From Clostridia bacterium (GTDB taxonomy: Bacteria; Bacillota; Clostridia; Christensenellales; Aristaeellaceae), in contig JAUMVG010000039.1 in the NCBI GenBank assembly GCA_030530315.1, forward strand, positions 1 to 33,698: a stretch of DNA of 33,698 nucleotides, read 5' to 3'. Position numbers and translations under genes: made by a program. Position 1 is the stretch's first letter; every line of letters starts with the position of its first letter. Positions 5,021 to 32,052 of the stretch are shown in pieces. The notes under the pieces were generated by a model, which was given only the letters and a program-made list of their open reading frames with translations, had not been told where the DNA came from and did not search any database.

Positions 5021-7834
5021 TTACTGCTCGGTGGGATAGTCGCTCTTGCCGGTGATCTTCCGCTTGATGATCTTCCCCATGCGCTTGAGGGCGTAGGGGC
5101 CTACCAGCTTCATCATCTCCTCAGCGGTATGCATGTCGCTGGCCGCTGGCAGATCCCGGGACAGGTGGATGGCGTCGAACTCGCACCGTGTGGTGCACAG
5201 GCCACAGCCCACGCACTGGTTCAGGTCCACGATGCTCCGGCCGCACTTCAGGCAGCGTCCCGCTTCCTTCTTGATCTGCGCCTCTGTCAGCGGCAGCCGC
5301 AGGTCGCTGAAGGTCTCCCGGGCCTCGCCGGGCTTCAGGCCGGGGGCCTGCCTCGGGGCGTTGTCGTAGCCCTCGACGCGGATGTCGTCCCGGTTCAGCT
5401 CGATGAACTGGCGCAGGTCGCGGCCGATGGTCATGGACTGGCCCGGATGGACGAAGCGGTTGATGGAGGTCATGGCGGCCTTGCCCTCGGCGATGGCGTC
5501 GATGGCGAAGCGCGCGCCGTGGAAGATGTCGCCGCCCACGAACACGTCCGGCTCGGCGGTCTGCAGCGTCACGGGATCCGCCTCGGCGGTGCCGTTGCGG
5601 CGCACGACCACCTTGCTGCCCTCCAGGAGCTTTCCCCACTGGGCGGACTGGCCGATGGCCATCAGCACGTGGGAGCAGGTGATGGTCCTGGTGTCGTTCT
5701 CGTCATACTGGGGCGCGAAGCGGTGCTGGTCGTCGAACACGCGGGTGCAGCGCTTGAACACGATGCCCGTCACCCGTCCGTTCTCGGTCAGGATCTCCTT
5801 GGGACCCCAACCGTTTTCCACGGCGATGCCCTCGTGCAGGATCTCGGCCACCTCGTCCTTCGCGGCGGGCATCTCGTCCCGCTGCTCCAGGCACAGCATG
5901 GTCACGCTTCCCTTGGTGCAGCGCAGCGCCGTGCGGGCCACGTCCGCGGCCACGTTGCCGCCGCCGACGACCACCACGTCGCCGTCCAGCCGCACATCGC
6001 CCTTCAGGTTCACGTCCTTCAGGAAGGCCACGCCGGAGGACACGCCCTCGGCATCCTCGCCGGGCACGCCGGCCATGCGGCCGCCCTGCATGCCGATGGC
6101 GATGTAGAAGGCCTTGAAGCCCTGGGCGCGCAGCTGATCGAGGGTAATGTCCTTGCCCACCTCGACGCCGCAGCGGATCTCGACTCCGGCCTTTTCGATG
6201 ATTTCGATCTCCCGCTGAAGCACTTCCTTCTCCAGGCGGAAGCTGGGAATGCCGTTGAGCAGCATGCCGCCCGGGCGGGATTTCCTTTCAAACACGGTGA
6301 CCGGGTAGCCCTCCTGCCGCAGGTACCAGGCGGCGGAGAGGCCGGCGGGACCCGCGCCGATGACGGCGATCTTATAGTCGTCCCACTGGTTGCCGTCGCC
6401 GTTCTCGCTGATCATGCCGAAGTTCTCCGGATGGGCCAGCTCCCACTGGGCTAGGAACTTCTTGATCTCGTCGATGGCCACGGGCGCGTCGACCAGGCCG
6501 CGGGTGCAGCGATCCTCGCAGCGGCGGTTGCACACCGCGCCGCAGACCGCCGGGAAGGGATTGTCCTGGCGAATAAGGCGCACCGCGTCCTCGTAGCGGC
6601 CCTCCGCCGCCATGCGGATGTAGCCCTGCACGGCGATGTGGGCCGGGCAGGCGGTCTTGCAGGGAGAAGTGCCGGTGTCGTAGCAGTTCAGCTTGTTGTG
6701 GTCGCGGTAGTCCCGGTCCCACTTGTCCTGACCCCAGACGTGGTCGTCCGGCAGGTCGTGCATCGGGTATTTTACCTGGCTGCCGTCGGCCCTGCACAGC
6801 TTCTGGCCCAAGCGCGCCGCGCCGGCGGGACAGACCTCCACGCACTTGCCGCAGGCCACGCACTTCTCGGGGTCCACGTGGGCCCGGTAGGCGCTGCGGG
6901 ACATGTTGGGCGTGTTGAACAGCTGGGAGGTGCGCAGGCCGTAGCAGCTGCCCGCCGAGCAGTTGCAGATGCCCACGATGCGGTTGGGACCGTCCAGATT
7001 GGTGATCTGGTGGACATAGCCCTTGCGCTCGGCCCGCTGGATGATCTCCAGGGCTTCCTCGCGGGTGATGTAGTGGGCATCCTTGCCGCTCTCCACCAGG
7101 TATTCGGCGATGTCGCCCACGCCGATGCACATGTAGCCCTCGATGTCGCCCACGCCCTCGCCGCGGATACGCTGGGCCTTGCGGCAGGCGCAGACCATCT
7201 TGCAGAACTTGTCGTTCTTGTTCAGCCAGTGCGAGAGGTGCTCCACGCTGACGCTCTCCACCTTTGGGTCGATGGCCTTCTCCACGGGAATCACGTGCAT
7301 GCCAATGCCCGCGCCGCCCGGCGGCACCAGCTTGGCCGCCAGCTCCAGCGGCTCCTGGGGGGCCAGGTTGAACATCGTGGCGACCTCGGGGTGCTCGTCC
7401 GGCAGGGTGGGATGCTCCACCATGTATTCGCCGGAACCCACCACCCACTTGGGGATCCAGTATTGGATGTGCTGGTCGGCGTTGTCCCGGTTCTGCTCCA
7501 GTATGCCGATCCACAGCAGATGGTCGATCACCTTCTGGGCCTCGGCCTCGCTCATGTTGTTGCGCTGGGCCAGCTCCGGCGTGGTCAGGCCGGTGCGCCG
7601 CTTCTTGAAGGACAGCAGGAAGCGCACCTCGTCCTTGGTGAGCAGCCGGTCCAGGATCCAGAAATCCATGTGGTTTTCCTTCATGCCGCCCGGCAGCTTG
7701 CGGGGAATGTTGTCCGTGATCATCACGGCCAGCTTCTTGACGAGCTTTTTCTTCTCGGGATCGTCGCAGTGGTGGCCGTTCACGGGATAGTCCCTCTCGT
7801 TGACGTGGATCATCGGGTTGACTTCGTTGACCAC
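5021..7834 (-). CDS. Large FAD/NAD(P) iron-sulfur oxidoreductase, GltD-like core (copy A)
   Basis: This 937-aa cytoplasmic multidomain flavoprotein starts at a GTG with AGGAG 7 nt upstream. Residues about 60-130 resemble a winged-helix segment. A Cys-rich region follows (C215, C217, C236, C290, C292, C297), then a 4Fe-4S motif (C325, C328, C331, C335). The GltD/DPD-type Fe-S helical domain has C384, C392, C396, C431, C435, C439 and C443. An FAD motif VIGAGPAGLS lies near 491-500 and an NAD(P) motif VVVGGGNVAADVA near 621-633. A C-terminal single-cluster ferredoxin motif has C874, C877, C880 and C884. It likely moves electrons between NAD(P)H and an Fe-S or flavin partner. The neighbouring reductase genes read in the same direction and suggest a shared pathway. 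A paralogue lies at 23858-26662. Physiological partner and substrate are unknown. Confidence 0.85.
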   Translation of the reverse strand: MVNEVNPMIHVNERDYPVNGHHCDDPEKKKLVKKLAVMITDNIPRKLPGGMKENHMDFWILDRLLTKDEVRFLLSFKKRRTGLTTPELAQRNNMSEAEAQKVIDHLLWIGILEQNRDNADQHIQYWIPKWVVGSGEYMVEHPTLPDEHPEVATMFNLAPQEPLELAAKLVPPGGAGIGMHVIPVEKAIDPKVESVSVEHLSHWLNKNDKFCKMVCACRKAQRIRGEGVGDIEGYMCIGVGDIAEYLVESGKDAHYITREEALEIIQRAERKGYVHQITNLDGPNRIVGICNCSAGSCYGLRTSQLFNTPNMSRSAYRAHVDPEKCVACGKCVEVCPAGAARLGQKLCRADGSQVKYPMHDLPDDHVWGQDKWDRDYRDHNKLNCYDTGTSPCKTACPAHIAVQGYIRMAAEGRYEDAVRLIRQDNPFPAVCGAVCNRRCEDRCTRGLVDAPVAIDEIKKFLAQWELAHPENFGMISENGDGNQWDDYKIAVIGAGPAGLSAAWYLRQEGYPVTVFERKSRPGGMLLNGIPSFRLEKEVLQREIEIIEKAGVEIRCGVEVGKDITLDQLRAQGFKAFYIAIGMQGGRMAGVPGEDAEGVSSGVAFLKDVNLKGDVRLDGDVVVVGGGNVAADVARTALRCTKGSVTMLCLEQRDEMPAAKDEVAEILHEGIAVENGWGPKEILTENGRVTGIVFKRCTRVFDDQHRFAPQYDENDTRTITCSHVLMAIGQSAQWGKLLEGSKVVVRRNGTAEADPVTLQTAEPDVFVGGDIFHGARFAIDAIAEGKAAMTSINRFVHPGQSMTIGRDLRQFIELNRDDIRVEGYDNAPRQAPGLKPGEARETFSDLRLPLTEAQIKKEAGRCLKCGRSIVDLNQCVGCGLCTTRCEFDAIHLSRDLPAASDMHTAEEMMKLVGPYALKRMGKIIKRKITGKSDYPTEQ

Positions 7835-7856
7835 GGAATCACTCCTATCTAACTTC

Positions 7857-7886
7857 AGTATCTTATTCTGTTACACGATCAGGCAA
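7857..7886 (-). promoter_or_regulatory. Possible promoter for the large flavoprotein gene (copy A)
   Basis: On the minus strand TTGCCT (7881-7886) and GATACT (7857-7862) are separated by 18 nt. The -10 lies 22 nt upstream of the GTG start. It would allow transcription separate from the upstream reductase genes. The boxes are only moderately good. Confidence 0.35.
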
Positions 7887-7914
7887 TAGCCCAAGCCCCC
7901 GTCTCTCCGGCATA

Positions 7915-7970
7915 CTGACTGTTGCCTGCTGCCTGTTGCCTTACCGCTGTTGCCTTATGCCTGTTGTCTT
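7915..7970. repeat. Four-unit 14-bp tandem repeat
   Basis: On the minus strand four adjacent 14-mers follow AAGGCAACAGGCAG with one to four changes each (plus-strand units 7915-7928, 7929-7942, 7943-7956 and 7957-7970). The array starts 4 nt beyond the stop of the gene ending at 7975 and fills much of the 140-nt gap to the next gene. There are no spacers, so it is not a CRISPR. Confidence 0.8.
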
Positions 7971-7974
7971 ATCC

Positions 7975-9159
7975 TTATTCGATCGGTATCTTGATCGTCA
8001 AATCGCTGGTCGGGTACGCGGCGCAGGCATGGACATAGCCGAAGTCCCGGTCGGCGGCGCGGCGGCCATCGTTCTCCGGGCACACGTACACGCTGCCGGA
8101 GAGCACCTTGGTGCGGCAGAAGCCGCATTCGCCGCTGCGGCAGCCGGTCTCGATGCGGATGCCCGCCCGTTCCAGCGCCACCACCAGGCTCTCGGTGGCC
8201 TTGGCGTCGATCACGTCCTCATGGATGCCCCGGCGCACGGTCAGCCTGAAGGTCCTGTCCTTCAGTTCCATCGGGTAGCCCTCGAAGGTGGTGATGTCCT
8301 TCGCCTGGCCGAACACCTCGAAGCGCACGCGCCGGGCGGGGATGTCCAGCTTCTTGAGCTCCTCCCGCAGGAAGCGGTACATCACCTGCGGGCCGCAGAT
8401 GAAGTAGGTGGTGTCCGGCGCGGAATACTTCTTGATCAGTTCGGCGGACAGGAAGCCCCGCTCCCCCTTCCAGTCGGGCTCGTCGCCGGACAGCACATGC
8501 ACCACGTGCACCCGGTCGCCTTGGAGCGCCTCCAGCTCGTCCTTCAGGATGATGTCCGTGGAGGCCACGGAGCCGTAGAGGATGGTCAGGTCCATGTCCA
8601 ACCTGCCCGCGGCGACCTCCCGCGCCATGGAGGCGAAGGGGGTGATGCCCACGCCGCCCGCCAGGGCCACGACGTGCTTTGCGTCGCGCAGGGGCTCATA
8701 GTAGAACTGGCCCAGGCCGATCTGGGCGGTGAACACGTCCCCGACTTTGACGTTGTCATTCAGGTGGTCACAGATGAAGCCGTCGCCCCGGGAACGGCGC
8801 ACGGTGATCTCCACGAAGCCGTCCTTTCCCCGGGCCTGACAGGGCGCGGAGGAGATGGAATAGGGGCGGGAGATGACGCTCTTGCCGATCTCGAAGTCGA
8901 TGACCATGTACTGTCCCGCGTAGAAGAAGGGCAGCTCGCCGCCGTCCTCCCGGACGAAGCGGAAGGACTTCGCCGTGGGGCTCGCGGTCTTGACCCCGGT
9001 GACCTTCACGCGCAGGCGGCCCGGATGCCAGGCCCGTGCGACGTCGCCGATGGGGTCCTCGCGCACAGGCGCGGCGGATGCGGACTCAAAGGCCTCCAGT
9101 CGGGCCTTGGTGACGCGGGACGCGCCGCCCACGTCCTTCAAAAATCCCTTGACCTTCAT
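7975..9159 (-). CDS. NAD(P)H:2Fe-2S oxidoreductase, ferredoxin-reductase family with C-terminal 2Fe-2S domain
   Basis: This 394-aa soluble reductase resembles phenol hydroxylase reductase, PaaE and NqrF-type modules. About 45 N-terminal residues of unclear role precede a ferredoxin-reductase FAD domain (SRPYSISS, residues 97-104). An NAD(P)-binding domain follows (GGVGITPF near 168-175; CGP at 255-257). The C-terminal plant-type 2Fe-2S domain has ligands C340, C345, C348 and C379. The expected role is hydride transfer from NAD(P)H to FAD, then single electrons to the 2Fe-2S centre and a partner enzyme. The start ATG overlaps the stop of the upstream flavoprotein by 4 nt and uses the AGGAGG inside that gene. 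This tight coupling makes the upstream saturase-like protein its likely redox partner. Confidence 0.88.
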   Translation of the reverse strand: MKVKGFLKDVGGASRVTKARLEAFESASAAPVREDPIGDVARAWHPGRLRVKVTGVKTASPTAKSFRFVREDGGELPFFYAGQYMVIDFEIGKSVISRPYSISSAPCQARGKDGFVEITVRRSRGDGFICDHLNDNVKVGDVFTAQIGLGQFYYEPLRDAKHVVALAGGVGITPFASMAREVAAGRLDMDLTILYGSVASTDIILKDELEALQGDRVHVVHVLSGDEPDWKGERGFLSAELIKKYSAPDTTYFICGPQVMYRFLREELKKLDIPARRVRFEVFGQAKDITTFEGYPMELKDRTFRLTVRRGIHEDVIDAKATESLVVALERAGIRIETGCRSGECGFCRTKVLSGSVYVCPENDGRRAADRDFGYVHACAAYPTSDLTIKIPIE

Positions 9160-10685
9160 TTTGCCGCCTCCTCTGCCATGGTATCCAGCACGTTCTTGGC
9201 CGCCTTGCGGCCGTTAGTCACCGCCGGGCCCATGCCGTCGCCGGAGATGGCGTGGGCGCCTGAGAACTCCAGGTGCTTGATGAAGCGCTCCGCCTCAGCG
9301 GTCTGCAGGCGGGCGATGATGTGGTCCTCCATCGTGTGGGCATAGCCGTAGATGCAGCCGTTCCACGCGCCGGTGTACCGGGCCACGGTCATGGGCGTCT
9401 CGATCACCAGCTCGAGCACGTGGTCCAGCAGGTTCACGCCGAAGTAGGCCGACATGTCGTCGATCAGCTGCTTGGCCACCCGGTGCTTCACTGCGTCGTA
9501 GTCCTCCGCCTTCACCGTCTTCCAGCCGTCCACCCGGGGCAGCACCGTGACGGAGAAGGAGCAGGTGCCCTCCGGCGTGCAGTCGGGGTTGCCGTAGTTG
9601 TGGCAGATGCAGGTCAGGTAGCGATAGGGGCCCAGGCCCGCCAGGTCCTTGTAGAGGGCGTCGGTATCCATGGTGTCGCCCCGGAAGATGCTGTAATCCC
9701 GGATGTTCAGCTCCTCGGCGGGCTTGTCCAGGATCATGATCACCGAGAAGGCGGTCAGGCTGAGCCTGCGGCCGTTGACCATCTTGACGGCCCCGGCGGG
9801 CACGGCGTCCGCGGGCTCGATCATCGAGGTGTACACCTTGTTGGGATAGGCGGAACAGATCACGTAGTCCGCGTGGATCTCGTCTCCCCGGGCGGTGCGC
9901 ACGCCGTAGGCCGTGCCGTCCTTCACGAGGATCTTGTCCACCTGCTGGCGGTACTCGATCTGCACGCCCATGGCCTCGGCGCGCTCCGCCATCTTCAGGG
10001 ACATCTCGTGGCTGAACTTGCGGGGAATGAAGGAGCCGTAGCCGATGTAATCCGCCATCAGCACGGAGAAGATGGTGAAGGGCAGATCCGAGAAGCCGCT
10101 GCCCACGTAGATCCAGTAGGGCGCCAGAAGGTCCAGCGCCTTCTGGGGCAGCTGGAAGGTGTCCAGCACCTCCTTGGTGGAATAGCCCGCGGTCTTGACG
10201 AAGGCCTCGTGCTTGAGCAGCATCATGGGCTTGCTCATCGGGTGGATGGACAGCTCGTTCACGCTGTCGAACACGGTGTGGCACAGGTTCAGCAGCCGCA
10301 GCACCTTGTCATAGGTGCCGGGCACCGCAGCGTCCACTTCCTTCGCGAAGCGCTCCAGGCCGGGATGCAGCGTGACCTCCAGCCCCGGCAGCGAAGCGTG
10401 ATAGGCCTCCGGCACCTTGAGCCAGTCGACGTCCACGCCCATGTCGTCGAAGAACTTGCCCACCTTCAGGCGGTTGTCCTTGTCTCCGATGCTCATCATC
10501 TCGTGGAGCGCGGCCTCGATCTCGATGCCGCCGCGCACGAAACTGGTGGCGATGCCGCCGGGCAGGTTGTGGCGCTCCAGCACCAGCACGTCCTTGCCCT
10601 TGTCGGCCAGCATCAACGCCGCGGACAGGCCCGCCAGCGCGCCGCCCACGACGATGACGTCGTAATGATCCTTATAGAATTTCAT
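9156..10685 (-). CDS. FAD-dependent CrtI/retinol-saturase-like oxidoreductase
   Basis: This 509-aa flavoprotein belongs to the phytoene desaturase/retinol saturase superfamily. The N-terminal Rossmann motif is IVVGGALAGLSAA (residues 11-23), with Glu37 as the likely ribose-binding acid and a following LPGGIATSF. The second glycine of the usual GxGxxG is Ala16. The C-terminal flavin segment (AHAISGDGMGPAVTNGRKAA) is also typical. Family members oxidise or saturate carbon-carbon double bonds of polyenes. ATG 10685 is chosen over the upstream GTG 10691 because GGAG lies 7 nt before it. It is translationally coupled to the 2Fe-2S reductase, which suggests it is a reductase fed by NAD(P)H. The substrate is unknown; the neighbouring fatty-acid isomerase homologue points to unsaturated lipids. 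Confidence 0.82.
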   Translation of the reverse strand: MKFYKDHYDVIVVGGALAGLSAALMLADKGKDVLVLERHNLPGGIATSFVRGGIEIEAALHEMMSIGDKDNRLKVGKFFDDMGVDVDWLKVPEAYHASLPGLEVTLHPGLERFAKEVDAAVPGTYDKVLRLLNLCHTVFDSVNELSIHPMSKPMMLLKHEAFVKTAGYSTKEVLDTFQLPQKALDLLAPYWIYVGSGFSDLPFTIFSVLMADYIGYGSFIPRKFSHEMSLKMAERAEAMGVQIEYRQQVDKILVKDGTAYGVRTARGDEIHADYVICSAYPNKVYTSMIEPADAVPAGAVKMVNGRRLSLTAFSVIMILDKPAEELNIRDYSIFRGDTMDTDALYKDLAGLGPYRYLTCICHNYGNPDCTPEGTCSFSVTVLPRVDGWKTVKAEDYDAVKHRVAKQLIDDMSAYFGVNLLDHVLELVIETPMTVARYTGAWNGCIYGYAHTMEDHIIARLQTAEAERFIKHLEFSGAHAISGDGMGPAVTNGRKAAKNVLDTMAEEAAK

Positions 10686-10715
10686 AAACACACTCCAATT
10701 CAGGGCAAAGGGAAC

Positions 10716-10781
10716 GGGAATTGAGAAGGAGCGGCCCCAATCGGAACCCTGTCGCTTCGACGGACTCGATTCTCAATTCCC
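10716..10781. repeat. Inverted repeat GGGAATTGAGAA / TTCTCAATTCCC
   Basis: Two perfect 12-bp arms (10716-10727 and 10770-10781) are separated by 42 nt in the region upstream of the saturase-like gene. Shorter relatives (CAATTCCCAATT) recur at 10774-10786 and near 10938-10950. It may be a small dispersed repeat or a regulatory hairpin. Confidence 0.6.
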
Positions 10782-10817
10782 AATTCTCATACTGTTCTCA
10801 TTGCAAATCATACCAAT

Positions 10818-10906
10818 AAGATTCTTCGACTTCGGCTCCGCCTTCGCTCAGAATGACGCAGTCGGTCGGTCATCTTGAGCGGAGCGCAGCGAAGTCGAAA
10901 GATCTT
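10818..10906. repeat. Palindromic dispersed repeat, copy 2
   Basis: The left arm (10818-10857) reads AAGATTCTTCGACTTCGG and ends in CAGAATGAC. The right arm (10869-10906) is its imperfect reverse complement, starting GTCATCTTGAGCGGAG and ending AAAGATCTT. It belongs to the same family as copies 1 and 3 and sits between two co-directional flavoprotein genes. It could form a long hairpin in the transcript. Confidence 0.78.
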
Positions 10907-10950
10907 TTCGTCGTGTTTTTGATTGAGAATAGTATCAATTCCCAATTGTT

Positions 10951-12339
10951 TTAGAAGAACCGTTCCACCAACTCGCGGCTGTACTCGGCGGTCTCGTCCA
11001 TGTCGCCGAAGCTCATGATCTCGCCGGCGTAGAAGGTGTCGTACTTGCCCTGCATGGCTTCGACCTTGTCATACCAGCCCGCGGCGTAGTCGTCGCTGAA
11101 AACATGCGGGAAGTAGTAGACGCTCCACTCGTTGACCACCTTGGAGGCTGGGTTGTGCATGACCTTCAGGTCCTCGAGCACCATGCTGCGGCACTTGTCA
11201 TAGGGGATCTCCTTGCTGTCCTTGTGCTTGCGCAGGGAGTAGGTGGTGATGACCTGGTCCTTGGTGTCGCGCCAGCGGCGATAGTACACCATCAGGTGGC
11301 CCAGGCGCTCCGGCACCATGTTGTCAAACACATAGTAAGAGATCTCCGGATGATCCTCGGGCTTGGTCTCGCAGGCCAGCACGTCGTAGCGCTCGTAGTC
11401 GATCTTGCTGAACAGCGCGCGCTCGTCCTCCCGGGCGTCGAAGTAGTCCACCATGCCCACCTGGCCGTCGTCCCGCTTGTTGGGGATGTACAGCGGCGCG
11501 GTGACGATGATCTTGTCGTACTCCTCCACCTTGCCGTTCACGGTGACGTACACCTTGCCATCCTTGCGCTCGACCTTTTCGATCCTGCTGTTCAGGCGGG
11601 CGGGATGCGCCAGGTGATCGTTCAGCTGCTCCCAGATGTACTGGGTGCCGTTCTTCCAGGTCCACAGGTTGATCTTCACGAAGTTCATGCAGGTCTGGAA
11701 GTCCAGATACTTCAGCACGTAAGCCGCCGGGATCTCGTCAAAGTAGCCGTAGCCAAAGGAGGTGAAGGGCCCGATCCAGATGTCCTGAACCAGTTCGACG
11801 CCGTTGATCTCGCAGAACTTCTTGAAGGGCAGGGCCAGGTCCTTCAGGTTCGGGTTCTCGCCGCTGACGGGCTGGCGCTTGGCGCTGGCGGCGGAGAAGC
11901 CCTCGTAGCGGCCCTCGGCCACGCCGCGATGGCCGTTCACGTCATAGCCCTTGTACTTGGTCTCCAGCAGCTCGCCGAAACGCTTCAGCTGCTTCTTCAT
12001 CTTCAGCAGGCGCGGGATCTTCAGGATGTTCTTCTTCGGCTCGAAGGGCTCGATCACCTTGCCCTGGCCGTTCTTGTAGTTGCGGTTCAGCTTCGGGCCG
12101 TCGTGGGTGATGCCGCAGAACTCCTCCACGTCGTGGACGGCGTAATAGGAAGGCACGCCCATGATGGCGCCCATCTCGTAACGGCGGCCGTTGTAGGTCG
12201 GGGACCAGCACTTGCCGCCGACGCGGTCCAGGCGCTCGAGGATGGTGTAATTGTTGTAGCCCTTCTTCTCAAGGTACATGCCCGCGGACAGGCCGGCAGG
12301 GCCGCCGCCGACGATACAGATGCGCGTATTCTTATCCAT
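10951..12339 (-). CDS. FAD-dependent polyunsaturated fatty acid double-bond isomerase homologue (PAI-like)
   Basis: This 462-aa flavin amine-oxidase-fold protein closely resembles, from memory, the Propionibacterium acnes fatty acid isomerase that turns linoleate into trans-10,cis-12 conjugated linoleate. Shared stretches include RRYEMGAIMGVPSY (residues 52-65), TKYKGYDVNGH (127-137), PFTSFGYGYFDEIPAAYVLK (191-210), WTWKNGTQ, PERLGHLMVYYRRW, WYDKVEAMQGKYDTFYAGEI and the final SFGDMDE..YSRELVERFF. FAD contacts include GGGPAG (11-16), Glu35 and GGK. It has about 25 extra residues near 138-163 relative to the 424-aa P. acnes protein. ATG 12339 follows an AGGAGG and is preferred to longer readings. 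It has its own promoter, divergent from an acyl ligase/ACP/thioesterase operon. Fold and family are strong; the exact substrate and product are inferred. Confidence 0.88.
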   Translation of the reverse strand: MDKNTRICIVGGGPAGLSAGMYLEKKGYNNYTILERLDRVGGKCWSPTYNGRRYEMGAIMGVPSYYAVHDVEEFCGITHDGPKLNRNYKNGQGKVIEPFEPKKNILKIPRLLKMKKQLKRFGELLETKYKGYDVNGHRGVAEGRYEGFSAASAKRQPVSGENPNLKDLALPFKKFCEINGVELVQDIWIGPFTSFGYGYFDEIPAAYVLKYLDFQTCMNFVKINLWTWKNGTQYIWEQLNDHLAHPARLNSRIEKVERKDGKVYVTVNGKVEEYDKIIVTAPLYIPNKRDDGQVGMVDYFDAREDERALFSKIDYERYDVLACETKPEDHPEISYYVFDNMVPERLGHLMVYYRRWRDTKDQVITTYSLRKHKDSKEIPYDKCRSMVLEDLKVMHNPASKVVNEWSVYYFPHVFSDDYAAGWYDKVEAMQGKYDTFYAGEIMSFGDMDETAEYSRELVERFF

Positions 12340-12378
12340 GGTGAATTCCTCCTGACATATTTGCAGATACCTGGAGGT

Positions 12379-12387
12379 ATTATAACA
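12379..12387 (-). promoter_or_regulatory. Extended -10 promoter element for the isomerase gene
   Basis: The minus strand reads TGTTATAAT (12379-12387), an extended -10 lying 39 nt upstream of the isomerase ATG. No good -35 is seen at 17 nt, which is usual for extended -10 promoters. Confidence 0.65.
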
Positions 12388-12520
12388 CAAATGCGCCGAA
12401 AAAGAAGCCTCCAAAGGGCGCTTCATAAAATTTTTCACGCAAATTCTTTGCAATTTTGCCATTCATTTGCCAAATCTTTTGTTTTTCCCGGCCCAGCACC
12501 TTCCTCAAAGGGCAAAAACA

Positions 12521-12529
12521 TGCTATAAT
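12521..12529 (+). promoter_or_regulatory. Extended -10 promoter element for the acyl ligase operon
   Basis: The plus strand reads TGCTATAAT (12521-12529), about 42 nt upstream of the GTG start at 12572. The -35 region is poor (TTCCTC at 17 nt). It is divergent from the isomerase promoter about 140 bp away, so one regulator could control both. Confidence 0.65.
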
Positions 12530-12571
12530 TGTCTTGAATGTGCCGAACAGCACAGAAGGAAGGTGTCATCC

Positions 12572-13927
12572 GTGCGCTATACCCGTTTTCTGTCCATGCT
12601 GGACACATGGGCTTTGACAGATCCAGCCCTCCCCGCCCTGCGCTATGCCGGGGCAGAGGGGCTTGAAACGCTGACCTACGCCGCGCTGGCCGAGGCCGTC
12701 CGCGGCCGGGCGGAGGCGCTGCTAAACAGCTCGACCGGCTGCCTGGGCGTGCTGTGCGACGGCTCCGCCGCCTGTGTGATCGAGATCCTCGCCGCCGCTG
12801 CCGCCGGCATCCAGACGGCGCTGCTGGACGGTCTCGCCGACGAAGGCGTGCTCTCCGGGCAGATCGCCGCCGCGGACGTGGACACCCTCTGGGGCGACGG
12901 GGAGCTATGCGAAGCCCTCTCCCCCACCCTGCGCTCCGGGCCCGTCAAACGCTCCGGGGACATCCTGTTCTTCACCTCCGGCACCGCCCAGGCGGCCCGG
13001 GCGGTGGCGCTGACCGAAGAGAGCCTGTGCGCCAGCGCCTGGAACGGCGGCGCGCTGCTGCCGCTGGCTCCCGGGGACGTCCTGCTGTGCATGCTGCCGC
13101 TGAACCACGTGTTCGGCTTTGTCTGTGGGCTGCTGTGGGGCCTGTCCTGCGGCGCCTGCGTGGCCCTGGGCCGCGGCCCACGCCACTACGCGGACGACTG
13201 CGCCTGCTTCAAGCCCACCGCCCTGCCCTCGGTGACGATGCTGCTGGACTTCCTGACGCGCGCCAACGCGCTGAACCCGGAATTGAAACTGGTCCTCGTG
13301 GGCGCGGGTCCCTGCCCCGCCCCGCTGCTGGAGTCGGTGAAGGCACGGGGCATCCGCGTGTCCTTCGGCTATGGACTCACCGAGACCAGCTCCGGCGTGG
13401 CCCTGTCCCTGGGCGACGACCCCTACGCCATGACCGTCTGTCCGGACGACCGCGTCATGATCGCGCTGGACGGGGAGATCCTCATAGAGGCCCCCACCTG
13501 CGTGATGCGCGGGTACTACAACGCGCCGGAGGCCACCGCCGCCGTTTTGCAGGGCGGCGTGCTCCACACCGGAGACCTGGGCTCCCTGGACGGGGAGGGC
13601 AGGCTGCGCATCACCGGCCGCAAGAAGGACATGCTTGTCCTGAGGGACGGCACGAAGCTGTTCCTGCCGGAGTATGAGGCCCGGCTTGCCCAAGCGCTGC
13701 CCGGCCGGGATTTCGCCGTGCTGGAGATCGACGGGCGGCCCGCGCTCATCCTGCGGGGCCGGGAGGAGGAACGGGAAGCCGTCTCCGCCGCCCTCGCGCC
13801 AGCCATGGCAGAGCAGTCCCGGGGCCGTCAGCTGAGCAAAATCGTATTTTTATCCGAACCCCTGCCCCGGTCCGCCACCGGGAAAATCAAGCGCTGGGAA
13901 CTCCAGCAGAAAGTGGTGAACGCATGA
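12572..13927 (+). CDS. AMP-forming acyl-CoA/acyl-ACP synthetase (ANL superfamily)
   Basis: This 451-aa adenylating enzyme has a slightly divergent P-loop FFTSGTAQAARAV (residues 133-145), YGLTETSSG (267-275), HTGDLG (332-337), ITGRKKDM (347-354) and the C-terminal catalytic Lys438 in SATGKIKR. Such enzymes activate a carboxylate with ATP to an acyl-AMP and pass it to CoA or a carrier protein. It is shorter than typical acyl-CoA synthetases (about 500-550 aa). The GTG start follows GGAAGG with suitable spacing; longer in-frame readings would run through the promoter. It overlaps the ACP gene by 4 nt, which argues that the ACP is its acceptor. A medium- or long-chain acyl substrate is plausible but not shown. 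Confidence 0.87.
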   Translation: MRYTRFLSMLDTWALTDPALPALRYAGAEGLETLTYAALAEAVRGRAEALLNSSTGCLGVLCDGSAACVIEILAAAAAGIQTALLDGLADEGVLSGQIAAADVDTLWGDGELCEALSPTLRSGPVKRSGDILFFTSGTAQAARAVALTEESLCASAWNGGALLPLAPGDVLLCMLPLNHVFGFVCGLLWGLSCGACVALGRGPRHYADDCACFKPTALPSVTMLLDFLTRANALNPELKLVLVGAGPCPAPLLESVKARGIRVSFGYGLTETSSGVALSLGDDPYAMTVCPDDRVMIALDGEILIEAPTCVMRGYYNAPEATAAVLQGGVLHTGDLGSLDGEGRLRITGRKKDMLVLRDGTKLFLPEYEARLAQALPGRDFAVLEIDGRPALILRGREEEREAVSAALAPAMAEQSRGRQLSKIVFLSEPLPRSATGKIKRWELQQKVVNA

Positions 13928-14175
13928 CGCGCAACGAGATTCTGGAAGCCGCGAAGGAGATCATCTACGAAAGCGTGCCCGAGTTGGAGGGCAAGCCGCT
14001 GGACGAGTCCACCGTCATCAACACCGACACCGGCATCGATTCCATGGGCTTCACGCTGATCATGTGCCGCCTGGAGGCCCGTTTCGACACCAAGATCCCC
14101 GACCGCCAGTGGCAGAAGCTGGCCACGCTGGGCGACGTCGTCTCCGCCTTTGAGAAGCGGATGCCCAAGGCATGA
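13924..14175 (+). CDS. Acyl carrier protein
   Basis: This 83-aa acidic helical carrier has the phosphopantetheine attachment serine in GIDSMG (Ser40). The ATG overlaps the ligase stop (ATGA), and its own stop overlaps the thioesterase start in the same way. This makes a ligase-ACP-thioesterase set distinct from a normal fab operon. It probably carries the acyl chain activated by the ligase. Confidence 0.9.
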   Translation: MTRNEILEAAKEIIYESVPELEGKPLDESTVINTDTGIDSMGFTLIMCRLEARFDTKIPDRQWQKLATLGDVVSAFEKRMPKA

Positions 14176-14891
14176 TCTACCGCCAGAGCCTGAAGCTGCT
14201 CAGCAGCGACGTGGACATGTACCGTCGCCTGCGCCTGAGCCGCCTGTTCACCCTGCTCCAGGAGGCCGCCATCGCCCACACCGAGGCGCTGGGCATGGGC
14301 CGGGAGAAGACGCTGGACAAGGGCGTCCTGTGGGCGCTGACGATGCAGCGGGTGATCGTGCGCCGGCTGCCGGAGTACGACGAGGCCGTCGAGCTGACCT
14401 CCTGGCCCGGAGAGACGATGCACGTGCTCTTCCCCCGCTATTACCGCCTCGCGGACAGCCGGGGCGAGAGCCTGGTGGAGAGCTCCGCGCTGTGGGTGCT
14501 GATGGACGCCGAGACCCGGGGCCGGGTGTACCCGGACGACTACGGCATCACGATCCCCGGCGTGAAGCTGGGTGGCGAGCCGCCCATGCCCAGGGTGCTG
14601 GGCATGCCCGGAACCGGGGAGCTGCCCTTCACCGTGCCCTACAGCTACGTCGATCTGAACGGCCACATGAACAACGCCCGGCTGCTGGACCTGGCCGAGG
14701 ACCTGATGCCGGAGGGGCTGCGCGCGCGGCCCGTTCGGTCCATCGAGGCCGAATACCGCGCGGAGGCAAAGCCCGGGGAGACGCTGATGCTGCGCACCCG
14801 GGAGGACGGCGCGCTGTTCACCCTCGCCGGAGACGGCGCGGGCGGCAGGAGCGCCTTTCACCTGCGGCTGGAGTACGCCGCCGAGCCGTAG
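14172..14891 (+). CDS. Acyl-ACP thioesterase (FatA/FatB-like, double hotdog)
   Basis: This 239-aa protein has two hotdog halves. The N-terminal half (about 1-125) includes LLQEAAIAHTEALGMG and the TMQRVIVRRLPEYDEAVELTSW stretch. The C-terminal half contains VDLNGHMNNARLLDL, with Asn163 and His165 at the positions typical of the plant-type acyl-ACP thioesterase active site. Length matches bacterial members (about 240-250 aa). It hydrolyses acyl-ACP to a free fatty acid plus ACP. Position directly after the ACP suggests it releases the chain carried there. Chain length and specificity cannot be read from sequence. Confidence 0.9.
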   Translation: MIYRQSLKLLSSDVDMYRRLRLSRLFTLLQEAAIAHTEALGMGREKTLDKGVLWALTMQRVIVRRLPEYDEAVELTSWPGETMHVLFPRYYRLADSRGESLVESSALWVLMDAETRGRVYPDDYGITIPGVKLGGEPPMPRVLGMPGTGELPFTVPYSYVDLNGHMNNARLLDLAEDLMPEGLRARPVRSIEAEYRAEAKPGETLMLRTREDGALFTLAGDGAGGRSAFHLRLEYAAEP

Positions 14892-14920
14892 CTATTTTGA
14901 GTTTGTATCAGGGGAAAAGC

Positions 14921-15583
14921 ATGGATTACGAAATCTTTGAGACCAAGACCCGGGCGCTGGCGGACAACGACGCCGCCGCGGAACAGACCCGGGCATTGAT
15001 GCGCGAAAGGGGCGCGAAGCTCGTCAACCTGATGGGCTCCCCCGGCGCGGGCAAGACCTCGGTGCTGCTGCGGCTCATCGACGGGCTGAAGCCGCTGCGC
15101 GTGGGCGTGATGGAGGCCGACGTGGACTCCGACGTGGACGCCCGCACCGTCGCCCAGACCGGCGCGCGGGTGATCCAGCTGCACACGGCGGGACTCTGCC
15201 ACATGGACGCGGACATGACCCGCCGGGGCCTGGAGCGCATGGGCGTGGAGGGCCTGGACGTCGTGTTCCTGGAGAACATCGGCAACCTGGTCTGCCCCGC
15301 GGAGTTCGAGGTCGGCGCGGACCTGCGCGTCGCCATACTCTCCGTGCCCGAGGGGGACGACAAGCCCCTCAAGTATCCGCTGATGTTCCGGACCGTCGAC
15401 TGCCTGATCGTGAACAAGCTGGACACGCTTCCCATCTTCGACTTCGATCTGGATGCCCTGCGCGGCCACATGGCGCGGCTGCGGCCGGAAGCGCCGGTGT
15501 TCCCCGTCTCCGCCCGAACCGGCGAGGGCGTGGCGGCGCTGGCGGACTGGCTGAGAAACAGGCTGGGAGGCGACAAGGCATGA
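14921..15583 (+). CDS. hypB: HypB-type nickel-insertion GTPase, copy 1
   Basis: This 220-aa SIMIBI GTPase assists nickel delivery to [NiFe] hydrogenase (or another nickel enzyme) with HypA. It has a P-loop GSPGAGKT (residues 39-46), the HypB Cys-His pair C93-H94 in LHTAGLCHMDA, the hallmark ENIGNLVCPAEFEVG (near 119-133) and a G4 motif NKLD (165-168). It lacks an N-terminal His-rich nickel store. ATG 14921 follows AGGGGA; it is 29 nt after the thioesterase stop, so it is probably co-transcribed. Its stop overlaps the start of a second hypB. Confidence 0.93.
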   Translation: MDYEIFETKTRALADNDAAAEQTRALMRERGAKLVNLMGSPGAGKTSVLLRLIDGLKPLRVGVMEADVDSDVDARTVAQTGARVIQLHTAGLCHMDADMTRRGLERMGVEGLDVVFLENIGNLVCPAEFEVGADLRVAILSVPEGDDKPLKYPLMFRTVDCLIVNKLDTLPIFDFDLDALRGHMARLRPEAPVFPVSARTGEGVAALADWLRNRLGGDKA

Positions 15584-16242
15584 AGATCATCGAATTGAAG
15601 GCGTCCGTCACCGCCTCCAACGATCGGGACGCGGATGCCCTGCGTCAGGAGATGCATAAAAAGGGCGTGCTGCTGGTGAACCTGATGAGCGCCCCCGGCG
15701 CGGGCAAGACCACCCTCCTATCCCGGCTGATCCGGGATATGGACAAAACCCGCATCGCCGTCATGGAGGCCGACATCGAGTCCGCCGTGGACGCGGAGCG
15801 CATCGAGGCTCTGGGCGCCCAGGCCATACAGGTGCACACCGACGGCATGTGCCACATGGACGCGGGCATGACCGCCCGGGCCTGGGGCGCCATGGACCGG
15901 GACGCCGCCGACCTGGTGGTGCTGGAGAACGTGGGCAACCTGATCTGCCCCGCCGAGTACGACACCGGCGCGGGCTGCAACATCATGATCCTGTCCGTTC
16001 CCGAGGGGGACGACAAGCCCCTCAAGTACCCGCTGATGTTCTCCCGGTGCGACGCGCTGGTGATCTCCAAGCTGGACGCCCTGCCCTACTTTGACTTCGA
16101 CGTCAATACCTGCGCCGCGCGCGCCCGGAAGCTGAACCCGGATATCCGGGTGTTTCCCCTGTCCGCCAAAACCGGCGAGGGCATGGCCGAATTCGAGGCG
16201 TGGCTGCTGGACCGCCTGGACGCCTGGCGCAGCCGCCCCTGA
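15580..16242 (+). CDS. hypB: HypB-type nickel-insertion GTPase, copy 2
   Basis: This 220-aa paralogue of the preceding gene is clearly diverged from it. It has P-loop SAPGAGKTT (37-45), C91-H92 in VHTDGMCHMDA and ENVGNLICPAEYDTG. The G4 motif reads SKLD (163-166) instead of NKxD, a change at the guanine-specificity residue. The start overlaps the first copy by 4 nt (ATGA). Two tandem hypB genes are unusual. They could form a heterodimer or serve two nickel targets. A 62-nt gap leads to hypA. Confidence 0.92.
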   Translation: MKIIELKASVTASNDRDADALRQEMHKKGVLLVNLMSAPGAGKTTLLSRLIRDMDKTRIAVMEADIESAVDAERIEALGAQAIQVHTDGMCHMDAGMTARAWGAMDRDAADLVVLENVGNLICPAEYDTGAGCNIMILSVPEGDDKPLKYPLMFSRCDALVISKLDALPYFDFDVNTCAARARKLNPDIRVFPLSAKTGEGMAEFEAWLLDRLDAWRSRP

Positions 16243-16304
16243 CATAAAGGCGCTTCGCCATCCAAAACCCACACTCCATACTCATATCAGGGGGCAAATA
16301 CCGC

Positions 16305-16649
16305 ATGCATGAAATGGGCATCATCCTGCACCTGGCCAAGACGCTGGACGAAACCGCCGAGCAGGAACAGCTGAAGGCCATCAGCGAGGTCACACTCCAG
16401 GTCGGCGAGGTCTCCGGCATCATGACGGACCTGTTCATTGACTGCTGGAACTACTTCCGCAAGAAACACCCCGTGCTGACCGACTGTGAGCTGGTGCTGG
16501 AGACCATCCCCGCCGTCACCTGGTGCGACGGCTGCAAGCGCACCTACGAGACCGTGAAGTACGGCCGGGAATGCCCCTACTGCCACTCCCCGGAGACCTG
16601 GCTGCTGCGGGGCAACGAATGCGTGATCAAGGAGATCGTGGCGGAGTAG
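16305..16649 (+). CDS. hypA: HypA nickel metallochaperone
   Basis: This 114-aa protein begins MHEMGI, with the nickel-binding His2 of HypA. The C-terminal zinc site is C74, C77, C90 and C93 (CDGC...CPYC). It binds nickel and delivers it with HypB to [NiFe] hydrogenase or urease-type enzymes. Length is typical (about 113-118 aa). It is the last gene of the plus-strand operon and no nickel enzyme is seen in this window. Confidence 0.94.
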   Translation: MHEMGIILHLAKTLDETAEQEQLKAISEVTLQVGEVSGIMTDLFIDCWNYFRKKHPVLTDCELVLETIPAVTWCDGCKRTYETVKYGRECPYCHSPETWLLRGNECVIKEIVAE

Positions 16650-21981: not shown

Positions 21982-22653
21982 TCACGCCCAGGTGAAGTTC
22001 TCCTCCCCGGCAGCGAGGGCGAAGTGACACTTGACGATGCCCAGGTCGACCTTCAGGTTCGTTCCGAGGCGGCCGGCTCTGGCCGTCACCCGGTCGCCGC
22101 TGCGCTCAAAGCGGAACCTCTGCTGGTTGACCGCCGTGGGCGCGAGCAGCGCCGCCTCGACGCCCCGCCTGTACCACTCCGGCGCGTCCGCCGCGGATGC
22201 GTCGCTGACCTCGGCGGCGGACTTGCTCCGGCGGGGACTGCCCTGGGTCCTTCCGTAGCCGAGGGAGATGATGATGACCTCCCGCTCTCCTGGCGCGACG
22301 ACCGCCCGGCTCTTCCCATGGGTCAGCGCCACCCAGCAGGTGTTCAAGCCCAGCTCCTGGGCCCTGAGCACCAGCTTTTCGCCATAGTACCCGCAGCGCT
22401 CCTCCAGGCTCTCGCCCTTCCTGCCGACCAGGGCGATGTAGTTCTTCGCGTTTTCAAACCTCCCGTAGCGCGCCAGGCGGGAGTTGAAGCACTCCGGCTC
22501 ATCGTACAGGATCTGCATGTTCAGACCGCTTTCGCGATTCAGCTCCGCCGCGAAGGCATCCAGTTGGTCCCTCACCTCCCGGGGAATGGGCTTGTCCAGG
22601 TATTGCCGCACGCTGTGGCGGCTGCGCATAATCTCCATGATCCCTTCGTTCAT
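21982..22653 (-). CDS. Nitroreductase-family flavoprotein (TM1586-like)
   Basis: This 223-aa FMN-dependent oxidoreductase begins with IMEIMRSRHSVRQY, the phosphate-binding segment of nitroreductases. A central GYYGEKLVLRAQELGLNTCWVAL is typical, as is the VNQQRFRFER segment near the C-terminus. Size and pattern fit the single-chain TM1586-type subfamily. ATG 22653 is the likely start, with AGGA about 11 nt upstream; a GTG at 22662 is possible. It has its own extended -10 promoter and is divergent from the ECF S component. Confidence 0.82.
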   Translation of the reverse strand: MNEGIMEIMRSRHSVRQYLDKPIPREVRDQLDAFAAELNRESGLNMQILYDEPECFNSRLARYGRFENAKNYIALVGRKGESLEERCGYYGEKLVLRAQELGLNTCWVALTHGKSRAVVAPGEREVIIISLGYGRTQGSPRRSKSAAEVSDASAADAPEWYRRGVEAALLAPTAVNQQRFRFERSGDRVTARAGRLGTNLKVDLGIVKCHFALAAGEENFTWA

Positions 22654-22824: not shown

Positions 22825-22911
22825 GACAGTGTGGCCGGGACGACGCCCTTCCCGCCGGGAATCCCATCCGACGGCGTTTTGCGACCAATCACAGCCATGA
22901 GGAGGATCACC

Positions 22912-23448
22912 ATGTCCGACAATACGAAAAAGCTCTGCCTGATCGCGGTAGGCATCGCCCTGTTTGTGACGCTGAGCCTTTGCCTGCAGGTGCCCGTGTT
23001 TGAAAACTACTATCTCTGCCTCGGCTACGTGGTGATGGCGGTCTACTGCTATTCCTTCGGGACCCTCGCCGGAACCGCGGCAGGCTGCCTGGGCGTGGTG
23101 CTCTACTGCCTGCTGATCAGCGGGCTCCGCGGCATGCCGGGCTGGACGCTGGGCAACCTGGTGATCGGCATCCTGCTGGGGCTGACCTTCCGCATCACAA
23201 AGCCCATGAAGAACCTTCTGCTGAAGACGGCGATCGACGCCTTTGCCATCGTCGCCGCCACCGCCCTGGGCATCCTCGTCGGCAAGTCCCTCGTGGAATG
23301 CCTGCTGTACGCCCAGCCCTTCCTCGTCCGGGCGGGCAAGAACCTGTACGCGTTTGTGGCGGACATTGTCGTTCTGCTGGTAAGCCTTCCCATCTGCATG
23401 ACGCTGGACGGCGTGGCGAAGCGGATGTTCCCGGGCCTTGTGAAGTGA
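22912..23448 (+). CDS. ECF transporter S component-like membrane protein
   Basis: This 178-aa hydrophobic protein has about five or six membrane segments and the GNLVIGILLGLTFRI stretch found in ECF S components. These bind a vitamin or small molecule and dock on a shared EcfA-EcfA'-EcfT module, which is not in the window. ATG 22912 is preferred because GAGGAGG lies 6 nt upstream; upstream in-frame starts lack a site. It is followed by an intrinsic terminator. The substrate is not identified. Confidence 0.75.
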   Translation: MSDNTKKLCLIAVGIALFVTLSLCLQVPVFENYYLCLGYVVMAVYCYSFGTLAGTAAGCLGVVLYCLLISGLRGMPGWTLGNLVIGILLGLTFRITKPMKNLLLKTAIDAFAIVAATALGILVGKSLVECLLYAQPFLVRAGKNLYAFVADIVVLLVSLPICMTLDGVAKRMFPGLVK

Positions 23449-31039: not shown

Positions 31040-31076
31040 CTGTCCTGTACCTTCGTTGCTCTTTGGGCTTTCCTGT

Positions 31077-32000
31077 TCACTTCAATGCCGCAAGCGTCTC
31101 CTCCAGGCTCTGTGCGTCGCCCACCCGCAGGATCGTAACGTCGGTCAGCGTCTTGGCCGCCAGTCCGGACAACGTCCTGCCGGGACCGCACTCGATGAAG
31201 GTGTCAAAGCCGTCCGCCCGCATGTTCAGGAGGGTCTGCACCCAGCGCACCGGGCTCATGGCCTGGCGCACCAGCAGGCCCGGGATCGCCGCGGCGTCCC
31301 GGTTGGCCGCGCCGTCCACGTTCATATACACCGGCAGCGCGGGCACGTCGAATGCCTTGCCTTCAAACAGCGCCTTCAGCTTCATCGCCGCGGGCTCCAT
31401 CAACGCGCAGTGGAACGGGGCGCTCACCGCCAGCTTCTTGCCGCGGATGCGCTGCTCCCGCGCCAGCGCGATGGCCTGGTCCACCGCCGCGGTCTCGCCG
31501 GAGATCACGGTCTGGGTCGGGCAGTTGTAGTTTGCGGCCACCACGTAGCCCTCCGTCACCGCCGCGCACACGGCCTCCACCTGCTCGGGCGAGCCGCCCA
31601 GCATGGCCGCCATGGCCCCCTTGCCGGGGGCCACAGCCTCCTGCATGCTGTCGGCGCGGTACTGGATCATCTCAAAGACATCCTCCATGGGGATGGAGCC
31701 GGCATAGGCCAGCGCCGCGTATTCCCCCAGGGAAAAGCCCGCCGCGCCTTCGGCCTCGATGCCGTGGGCGCGCAGCGCCATCGCCGCGGCCAGGTCGGCG
31801 GCCAGCACGCAGGGCTGGGTGTTGTGGGTCAGGTTCAGGTCCTCCTGCGCGCCTTCAAAGCAAAGCTCGGAGATGCCGCGGCCCAGTGCCTTGTCGGCAA
31901 CGTCGAACACCTGCCTGGCAGCGGGTTCCGCCGCACACAGGTCCTTCATCATGCCGGGGAACTGGGCTCCCTGGCCGGAAAACATAAACGCAATCTTCAT
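31077..32000 (-). CDS. fabD: Malonyl-CoA:ACP transacylase FabD
   Basis: This 307-aa enzyme transfers malonyl from CoA to ACP for type II fatty acid synthesis. It has FSGQGAQ (7-13), nucleophile Ser90 in GFSLGE, Arg115 for the malonyl carboxylate and catalytic His197 in APFHCALM. The residue before the nucleophile, normally His in GHSLG, is Phe89. ATG 32000 is preferred to 32012 because GGAG lies 6 nt upstream. It has a strong promoter and is the first gene of an operon with the carboxyltransferase. Confidence 0.94.
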   Translation of the reverse strand: MKIAFMFSGQGAQFPGMMKDLCAAEPAARQVFDVADKALGRGISELCFEGAQEDLNLTHNTQPCVLAADLAAAMALRAHGIEAEGAAGFSLGEYAALAYAGSIPMEDVFEMIQYRADSMQEAVAPGKGAMAAMLGGSPEQVEAVCAAVTEGYVVAANYNCPTQTVISGETAAVDQAIALAREQRIRGKKLAVSAPFHCALMEPAAMKLKALFEGKAFDVPALPVYMNVDGAANRDAAAIPGLLVRQAMSPVRWVQTLLNMRADGFDTFIECGPGRTLSGLAAKTLTDVTILRVGDAQSLEETLAALK

Positions 32001-32052
32001 CGCAGGCTCCATTCCGGCGGCACAAGCGCCGCGTCAATCACGAGTTAATATA

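Follow-up and report, generated by a model that had tools for sequence, protein, structure and literature searches.

The ten-gene island described here probably serves fatty-acid biohydrogenation in Clostridia of the ruminant gut, with conjugation of a substrate followed by reduction of the diene and a further step on a C=C bond. It lies within a 33,698-nucleotide stretch of a Clostridia bacterium genome (the window). The initial annotation had proposed a lipid island that isomerizes and then reduces, and this proposal is partly supported: its gene content and the conservation of its neighborhood hold up. In the pathway that we envision, linoleate or a similar methylene-interrupted polyunsaturated fatty acid (PUFA) would be taken up and perhaps loaded by the ligase onto a dedicated acyl carrier protein (ACP). 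The PAI-like FAD isomerase would then shift a double bond so that the diene becomes conjugated (the trans-10,cis-12 form, judging by homology), after which an IsrA-type flavoprotein would use NAD(P)H to reduce one of the two conjugated double bonds, yielding a monoene. The six-Cys site of IsrA may be matured by HypA and HypB, possibly with nickel. A CrtI/RetSat-like protein with its own NAD(P)H:2Fe-2S reductase may carry out further C=C reduction or geometric isomerization, and the acyl-ACP thioesterase would release the product. Overall, the cell would thereby dispose of reducing equivalents and render the PUFA less toxic.

Layout of the island

All ten genes assigned to positions 5021–16649 (isomerase, saturase-like/reductase pair, Fe-S flavoprotein and ligase-ACP-thioesterase-HypB-HypB-HypA) were found at the coordinates and on the strands first given to them, and family searches agreed with the annotation (Table 1). 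Two gene starts in that annotation probably need to be moved. Since homologs align from these points, the isomerase probably begins at M42 (12339) instead of 12462 and the ligase near 12572; the divergent region between them is therefore about 230 bp. Overlaps of 4 bp occur at the saturase/reductase, ligase/ACP, ACP/thioesterase and HypB/HypB junctions. The island also reaches past 16649, as a second IsrA paralog (IsrA2) lies downstream.

Table 1. Positions, strands and supporting evidence for features of the island
Feature	Position	Strand	Basis
IsrA1, IsrA-type Fe-S flavoprotein, candidate conjugated-diene reductase, 937 aa	5021..7834	-	domains, six Cys
NAD(P)H:2Fe-2S (FNR-type) electron-transfer reductase	7975..9159	-	FNR + 2Fe-2S domains
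CrtI/retinol-saturase-like FAD oxidoreductase, candidate second C=C reductase	9156..10685	-	profile matches
PAI-like polyunsaturated fatty acid isomerase, probable start at M42 of the ORF	10951..12339	-	2b9w match
Divergent promoter region, isomerase/ligase	12340..12571		intergenic
AMP-forming acyl ligase	12572..13927	+	start from RBS and homologs
Acyl carrier protein, carrier Ser40	13924..14175	+	Pfam, conserved Ser
Acyl-ACP thioesterase (FatA/B-like)	14172..14891	+	Pfam
HypB-like GTPase 1, Ni-site Cys-His	14921..15583	+	TIGR00073 above cut-off
HypB-like GTPase 2, Ni-site Cys-His	15580..16242	+	profile matches
HypA-like nickel metallochaperone, His2-Glu3, two CxxC	16305..16649	+	PF01155 above cut-off
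IsrA2, second IsrA-type protein	23858..26662	+	64% to IsrA1 (genome search)

No palindrome that might be a shared operator of the divergent isomerase/ligase promoter was clearly enriched among 68 intergenic regions. The commonest 9-mer in these 68 divergent regions resembles the ligase start codon. GC3 is 0.88–0.95 for the island genes and 0.89–0.94 for flanking genes; there is therefore no compositional sign of recent import. Plasmid carriage was rejected: PLSDB gave four weak matches, at 24–32% identity.

Conservation of the neighborhood

Our counts of gene order come from the best 80 of 378 isomerase relatives, which are mostly ruminant-gut metagenome-assembled genomes (MAGs), many of them mutually related, and include only loci with enough DNA (25 of the 80 lacked the length needed for a stricter count of IsrA). 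Ruminants are named in the record titles of 33 of these 80, and another 32 are RUG genomes. Among the testable loci of this set, the saturase-like gene follows the isomerase in 76/76 and its reductase follows in 68/68, while the divergent ligase lies upstream in 69/74, the ACP is present in 69/74 and the thioesterase in 65/69. Since the neighborhood is so conserved, the arrangement is not due to chance, and the co-occurrence of gene families in relatives that the initial annotation had suggested looking for does exist. IsrA directly follows the reductase in 39 of the 55 testable loci; it is present in 46 and missing from 9. Retrieved DNA contains IsrA at 60 of the 80 loci (in 3 of these 60, under 300 aa of the protein is covered), and all 20 genomes without a local IsrA carry one elsewhere. 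HypB and HypA are at the locus in 20/59 and 25/58 testable cases, respectively.

Of 28 genomes from the genus of the window, 3 have a close isomerase, and exactly those 3 have IsrA of at least 90% identity. An isomerase search of 60 genomes gave matches at E 0.001 in 31, all but three of them short and at E 6e-6 or weaker. Across the class, a PAI homolog at E 1e-30 or better was present in 3 of 391 genomes (that of G269 is distant, at ~30%), all 3 being among the 33 with IsrA. Since IsrA is also found in 30 of the 388 class genomes lacking a PAI homolog at E 1e-30, it must have other uses. We inspected 18 IsrA loci chosen from these 33 genomes. In a second family, one genome (G309, L049) keeps the gene order at 41–60% identity; another (G101, L182) keeps IsrA, reductase and saturase, encoded in a row as IsrA-TetR-reductase-saturase, and has only remnants of the isomerase and thioesterase. 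In two further families (L050, L186), a PAI-like gene at 27–29% identity adjoins HypB-IsrA, with HypA nearby.

Could the isomerase, saturase-like protein and FNR-type reductase form the whole fatty-acid pathway, with IsrA, HypA and HypB belonging to a neighboring system for dienes, terpenes or another electron acceptor? The invariant linkage of saturase and reductase in the best 80 of 378 relatives, as against 46/55 for IsrA, fits such a division, as do the wide occurrence of IsrA without isomerase and the distant saturase-reductase pairs of G070 and G334 (L193, L194), whose genomes have no IsrA match at E 1e-150. We nevertheless regard it as unlikely, since IsrA of at least 74% identity occurs only alongside the isomerase (28 and 391 genomes searched), every one of the 20 genomes without a local copy retains one elsewhere, and other families have IsrA beside PAI-like genes or beside the saturase and its reductase.

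Candidate enzymes and their substrates

For the isomerase, the best match is the solved P. acnes enzyme (2b9w), at E 9.7e-140 over nearly the full length; the next match is at 2e-9. The protein is thus clearly closer to PAI than to other amine-oxidase-fold proteins. In an alignment of 84 isomerases, the positions of R88, F168 and F193, which we take to be the substrate-site residues of PAI, hold R in 76/76, F in 75/76 (with one Y) and F in 77/77 ungapped sequences, respectively. The protein thus resembles PAI of Cutibacterium (Propionibacterium) acnes in both overall homology and these residues, but differs in sitting inside an island of reductase and acyl-handling genes. Within the island, the isomerase and IsrA1 are the most conserved members (median identity 87.9% and 80.6%) and the ligase and thioesterase the least (54% and 49%), which is odd for a substrate-specific loading step; PAI, moreover, acts on free acids. 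The ligase catalytic residues are intact, and the ACP carrier Ser is present in 73/73 sequences.

The saturase-like protein falls below the cut-offs of the NCBIfam models carot_isom (E 4e-32; 111.7 bits, cut-off 586.9) and crtI_fam (85.3 bits, cut-off 238.1), and we therefore call it CrtI-like only; it also matches structure 4rep (E 1.6e-11). Its partner combines FNR and 2Fe-2S domains, with C340, C345 and C348 in 77/77 ungapped sequences. After removal of sequences under length limits (short fragments), saturase and reductase distances correlate at r 0.95, compared with 0.23–0.76 for all other gene pairs. This co-inheritance argues for NAD(P)H as the electron donor of the saturase-like protein, as had been suggested from the first annotation.

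As the nearest matches of the saturase-like protein are carotenoid enzymes and isoprene induces IsrA (PMC10134865), one might suppose that the island acts on a terpenoid, carotenoid or retinoid polyene and that the isomerase has switched substrate. This is improbable given the closeness of the isomerase to a solved linoleate isomerase with R88, F168 and F193 kept, the presence of fatty-acyl tools (ligase, ACP and FatA/B-type thioesterase) and the absence of carotenoid and terpene synthesis families from the 20 window ORFs scanned with Pfam. Least probable is a biosynthetic island in which acyl-ACP is remodeled to yield a membrane lipid (conjugated or trans) or a specialized product: a dedicated ACP and thioesterase, and carboxyltransferase and FabD-type acyltransferase genes downstream (29588–32012), would suit it, but none of the ten island genes encodes a ketosynthase or acyltransferase, a thioesterase would free a chain, not build one, distribution within the genus is patchy, and many carriers among the 80 relatives kept come from the ruminant gut.

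For the biohydrogenation pathway that we favor, the IsrA-type flavoprotein is central. IsrA1 is PRK12771-like (433 bits, under the model cut-off of 516) and has the architecture of the IsrA clade: about 900 aa, with Fer4, Fer4_20 and Pyr_redox_2 domains and a C-terminal Fe-S Cys cluster; the N-terminal part has no Pfam match. A structure model is usable, with a mean pLDDT of 76.8 and pTM of 0.80. Six Cys are conserved (C215, C217 and C236 in 70/70 IsrA sequences; C290, C292 and C297 in 69/69), and their two CxC motifs match the published cluster V layout, in which the motifs are Cys180/182 and Cys254/256. Judged by sequence, both IsrA1 and IsrA2 have the IsrA architecture and six-Cys site. Our comparison with Acetobacterium IsrA (VUZ27132.1) relies on its published architecture and Cys layout.

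HypA and HypB are found in the window, as they are with IsrA of Acetobacterium, and in a congener (G020, L045) IsrA2 directly adjoins HypA. The first HypB-like GTPase passes the TIGR00073 cut-off, whereas HypA exceeds that of PF01155 and, at 73 bits, falls under that of TIGR00100 (88.1). HypD was not found in the window's own genome, and we rejected the idea that HypA and HypB serve to mature a NiFe hydrogenase there. Among 52 genomes chosen from the 80 relatives and a further genome set, HypD was present in 4 and not found in 48, although absence from MAGs may reflect incompleteness; most Hyp proteins in those genomes should therefore not serve NiFe hydrogenases.

Relation to known systems and implications

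IsrA of Acetobacterium, a putative isoprene (conjugated-diene) reductase, was found by proteomics, not enzymology, and is induced by isoprene (PMC10134865). Isoprene and butadiene are each hydrogenated at one bond by the isoprene reducer, which does not hydrogenate ethene, propene or fumarate (excerpt of PMC9765523). Given this specificity for one bond of a conjugated diene, an IsrA-like reductase would need an isomerase to act on a methylene-interrupted PUFA. The initial annotation recognized the family of the large Fe-S flavoprotein but missed that, together with HypA and HypB, it resembles an IsrA-type diene reductase set, a likeness that gives the isomerase step a purpose. The isr operon of Acetobacterium wieringae and the island share the Fe-S/FAD/NAD(P)H architecture (PMC10134865 and PMC9765523), two CxC motifs about 74 residues apart inside the six-Cys site, and HypA/HypB partners without the remaining NiFe maturation set. 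They differ in that the isr operon has two HypA, one HypB and a ferredoxin where the island has two HypB and one HypA, and in that only the island has an isomerase, saturase, ligase, ACP and thioesterase; the predicted substrate of its IsrA, a conjugated fatty acid, is also different.

Among known routes, CLA-HY/CLA-DH/CLA-DC/CLA-ER of Lactiplantibacillus plantarum likewise convert linoleate to CLA and monoenes but, in contrast to the island, through a hydratase, dehydrogenase, decarboxylase and enone reductase (excerpt of PMC13365329). Oleate hydratase (PF06100) was not found in the window's own genome, and we rejected this route; it was above cut-off in 1 of 23 genomes chosen from the 80 relatives and a further genome set. 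The linoleate isomerase and CLA reductase of Butyrivibrio fibrisolvens share the logic of isomerizing and then reducing, and the gene of that CLA reductase was sequenced in 2007 (reference in PMC4478896). In co-culture, onward conversion of t10,c12-CLA was ascribed to B. fibrisolvens and not to C. acnes (excerpt of PMC7339423).

The two halves of the island were already known separately, as PAI homologs in rumen MAGs (PMC10019597, in excerpt) and as IsrA-Hyp linkage (PMC10134865). The former were found in 7 of 228 MAGs, one of them correlated with milk t10,c12-18:2, and the available part of that report describes the isomerase alone, without a reductase cluster, IsrA or Hyp genes. Our literature searches found no description joining the two, in agreement with the view, expressed when the island was first noticed, that no system with this gene set had been described.

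How saturated the fats of milk and meat are, and how much trans fat they contain, is shaped by biohydrogenation in the rumen, a process for which the genes are not yet well known. More tentatively, and with greater doubt than attaches to biohydrogenation itself, the island may supply long-missing enzymes of a route of this process, probably the trans-10 route that is linked to milk-fat depression, with a nickel-dependent IsrA-type diene reductase that would be a metal-Fe-S enzyme acting on unactivated conjugated fatty acids. A conserved island provides marker genes together with a candidate isomerase, reductases, electron donor and maturation proteins, making the question directly testable. 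The published discussion of IsrA substrates considered isoprene, butadiene and terpenes (PMC10134865); the island suggests that a fatty acid may be a natural substrate of IsrA-type enzymes.

Gene content and conservation of the island

All ten genes placed at 5021-16649 by the initial annotation proved real, with strands as stated there, and Pfam and NCBIfam models confirmed the FNR plus 2Fe-2S protein (reductase), CrtI-like flavoprotein (saturase), AMP ligase, ACP, acyl-ACP thioesterase, two HypB and one HypA. The best match of the PAI-like isomerase is the solved P. acnes protein 2b9w, with E 9.7e-140 against 2e-9 for the runner-up. Genes overlap by 4 bp at four junctions, saturase/reductase among them, and the ligase Lys and P-loop, ACP Ser and thioesterase Asp-Asn-His are retained in almost all sequences checked. 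The isomerase-saturase gap contains a repeat that looks like a small inserted element, since the corresponding gap in a congener (L046) measures just ~110 bp.

To collect relatives, an isomerase alignment was scanned against GTDB species genomes and the best 80 of 378 were kept; gene-order counts take in only loci with enough DNA. Conserved co-occurrence in order, proposed initially as a check, was found in these 80: the saturase-like gene lies downstream of the isomerase on the same strand in 76/76 testable loci, the reductase is present in 68/68, and the divergent ligase, ACP and thioesterase are present in 69/74, 69/74 and 65/69. IsrA, the large Fe-S flavoprotein, is in the locus in 46/55 and directly follows the reductase in 39/55. 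With no length filter applied, 60 of the 80 loci have IsrA within the DNA fetched; the remaining 20 genomes all encode it elsewhere. As HypB is found in 20/59 and HypA in 25/58 testable loci, the Hyp genes are often not local. Record titles for the 80 name a ruminant host in 33 cases and RUG genomes, which we read as rumen uncultured genomes, in 32; 15 are silent. Isomerases 88-89% identical occur in MAGs labelled Sphaerochaetaceae (L064, L100), reflecting horizontal transfer or mis-binning.

Features of the window and of loci in relatives
Sequence	Positions	Strand	Feature
Window	5021-7834	-	IsrA1 (P0001)
Window	7910-7970		Short direct repeats, type GGCAACAG, upstream of IsrA1
Window	10780-10920		Repeat with inverted halves, isomerase-saturase gap
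Window	near 12339		Isomerase start suggested by homologues
Window	near 12572		Ligase start suggested by homologues
Window	22008-22640		Nitroreductase-like gene, near flavoprotein island
Window	22831-23448		ECF riboflavin-transporter S component, near flavoprotein island
Window	23858-26662	+	IsrA2 (P0017)
Window	29588-32012		Carboxyltransferase and acyltransferase (FabD-type) genes, downstream of IsrA2
L138	10001-11536		In-frame stops within matched isomerase stretch
L128	10001-11443		In-frame stops within matched isomerase stretch; match may lie 5' of true start
L182 (G101)	14437-15000		C-terminal remnants of isomerase and thioesterase, after saturase
L050	9906-10973		Distant PAI-like gene next to IsrA; a homeodomain-like HTH protein comes before it
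L186	13893-14972		Distant PAI-like gene next to IsrA; a homeodomain-like HTH protein comes before it
L146 (G021, isomerase-negative congener)	7785-8276		HypB-IsrA-HypA, then 44% saturase-like gene at contig end

IsrA-type proteins, Hyp genes and functional pairing

IsrA1 and its paralogue IsrA2 are 64% identical, and both are PRK12771-like with a C-terminal cysteine cluster; the family scan, which covered IsrA1, found Fer4, Fer4_20 and Pyr_redox_2 domains. The same architecture is known from IsrA, a putative isoprene reductase from Acetobacterium wieringae; its published description places two CxC motifs (Cys180/182 and Cys254/256) within a site of six cysteines (PMC10134865). In the proteins studied here, C215, C217 and C236 are invariant in 70/70 sequences and C290, C292 and C297 in 69/69, the CxC pairs being spaced by 75 residues compared with 74 in Acetobacterium (PMC10134865).

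As the IsrA-Hyp linkage is published, HypD is mostly not found and Hyp residues are kept, the simplest explanation of the HypB-HypB-HypA tail is that it serves to mature the IsrA proteins. Roughly 73% of 988 IsrA homologues are reported to have HypA nearby and ~56% HypB, in a study whose IsrA host is described as lacking hypCDEF and a NiFe hydrogenase (PMC10134865). HypD was not found in the window's genome or, overall, in 48 of 52 genomes, and is present in four. Metal-site residues are retained in every sequence checked (33, 26 and 23): His2-Glu3 and both CxxC motifs in HypA, Cys-His in HypB.

Saturase and reductase very probably form an electron-transfer pair, since their protein distances correlate at 0.95 (other pairs, 0.23-0.76), two saturase types, found at 22 and 53 loci, each come without exception with their own reductase type, and a reductase also neighbours the distant saturase homologues of G070 and G334. 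Median pairwise identity is highest for the isomerase (87.9%, a figure flattered by selecting relatives on this protein) and IsrA1 (80.6%) and lowest for the ligase (54.4%) and thioesterase (49.4%), which suggests that the substrate-specific core consists of these first two proteins.

Depth and INDEPENDENCE: distribution in the genus, class and other families

A close isomerase occurs in 3 of 28 genomes of the window's genus, and IsrA of at least 90% identity occurs in exactly those three, a coincidence with a chance of about 1 in 3,276 by a hand estimate that ignores relatedness; three other genomes have IsrA at 54-62% only. Across the class, PAI homologues at E 1e-30 or better are present in 3 of 391 genomes (the window's own, G309 and, distantly, G269). 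IsrA is encoded by 33 genomes, including all three of these and 30 of the remaining 388. Saturase relatives of at least 60% are confined in this sample to G000, G101 and G309.

In G309, from another family, the arrangement of reductase-saturase-isomerase divergent from ligase-ACP-thioesterase is preserved at 41-60% identity, and IsrA-HypA-HypB lies at the terminus of another contig. Its congener G101, a one-contig genome, carries HypB-HypA-IsrA-TetR-reductase-saturase in a row, followed by isomerase and thioesterase remnants, with no ligase or ACP match at this locus. G101 has thus naturally lost its isomerising half and kept its reducing half. In two genomes of other families (L050, L186), a 27-29% PAI-like gene adjoins HypB-IsrA, with HypA near.

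A proposed route and its relation to known systems

Isoprene-reducing strain Y is reported to hydrogenate one of the bonds in isoprene or 1,3-butadiene and is described as not hydrogenating ethene, propene or fumarate (PMC9765523). An IsrA-type enzyme would need linoleate to be conjugated first, as PAI does. Based on this substrate range and the conjugating activity of PAI, the isomerase would conjugate linoleate, giving a presumed product isomer, the IsrA-type protein, putatively nickel-dependent, would reduce the conjugated diene, and the saturase/reductase pair may perform a further step on a presumptive substrate. The direction of acyl loading by the divergent operon is likewise conjectural. 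What the sequences show directly is the gene families, their order and co-inheritance, the intact residues and the layout of the cysteines. The initial observation is confirmed, and its reading as a fatty-acid double-bond isomerisation/reduction island is partly supported and is sharpened by the candidate IsrA-type diene reductase.

Parts of this picture are known: IsrA-Hyp linkage is already reported (PMC10134865), as are PAI homologues in rumen MAGs, one of which correlates with milk t10,c12-18:2 (PMC10019597). Judged on titles, abstracts and passages, with subscription papers and preprints outside coverage, we found no publication joining isomerase, saturase, IsrA and Hyp genes. A CLA reductase of B. 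fibrisolvens was sequenced in 2007 (cited in PMC4478896). Rumen producers of trans-10 intermediates have been described as not unambiguously identified (PMC7339423), and a fatty-acid oxidoreductase as one that could not be searched for (PMC4478896). As to physiological role, we consider it reasonably likely that this is a conserved biohydrogenation island, probably of the ruminant gut, built around a candidate IsrA-type diene reductase.
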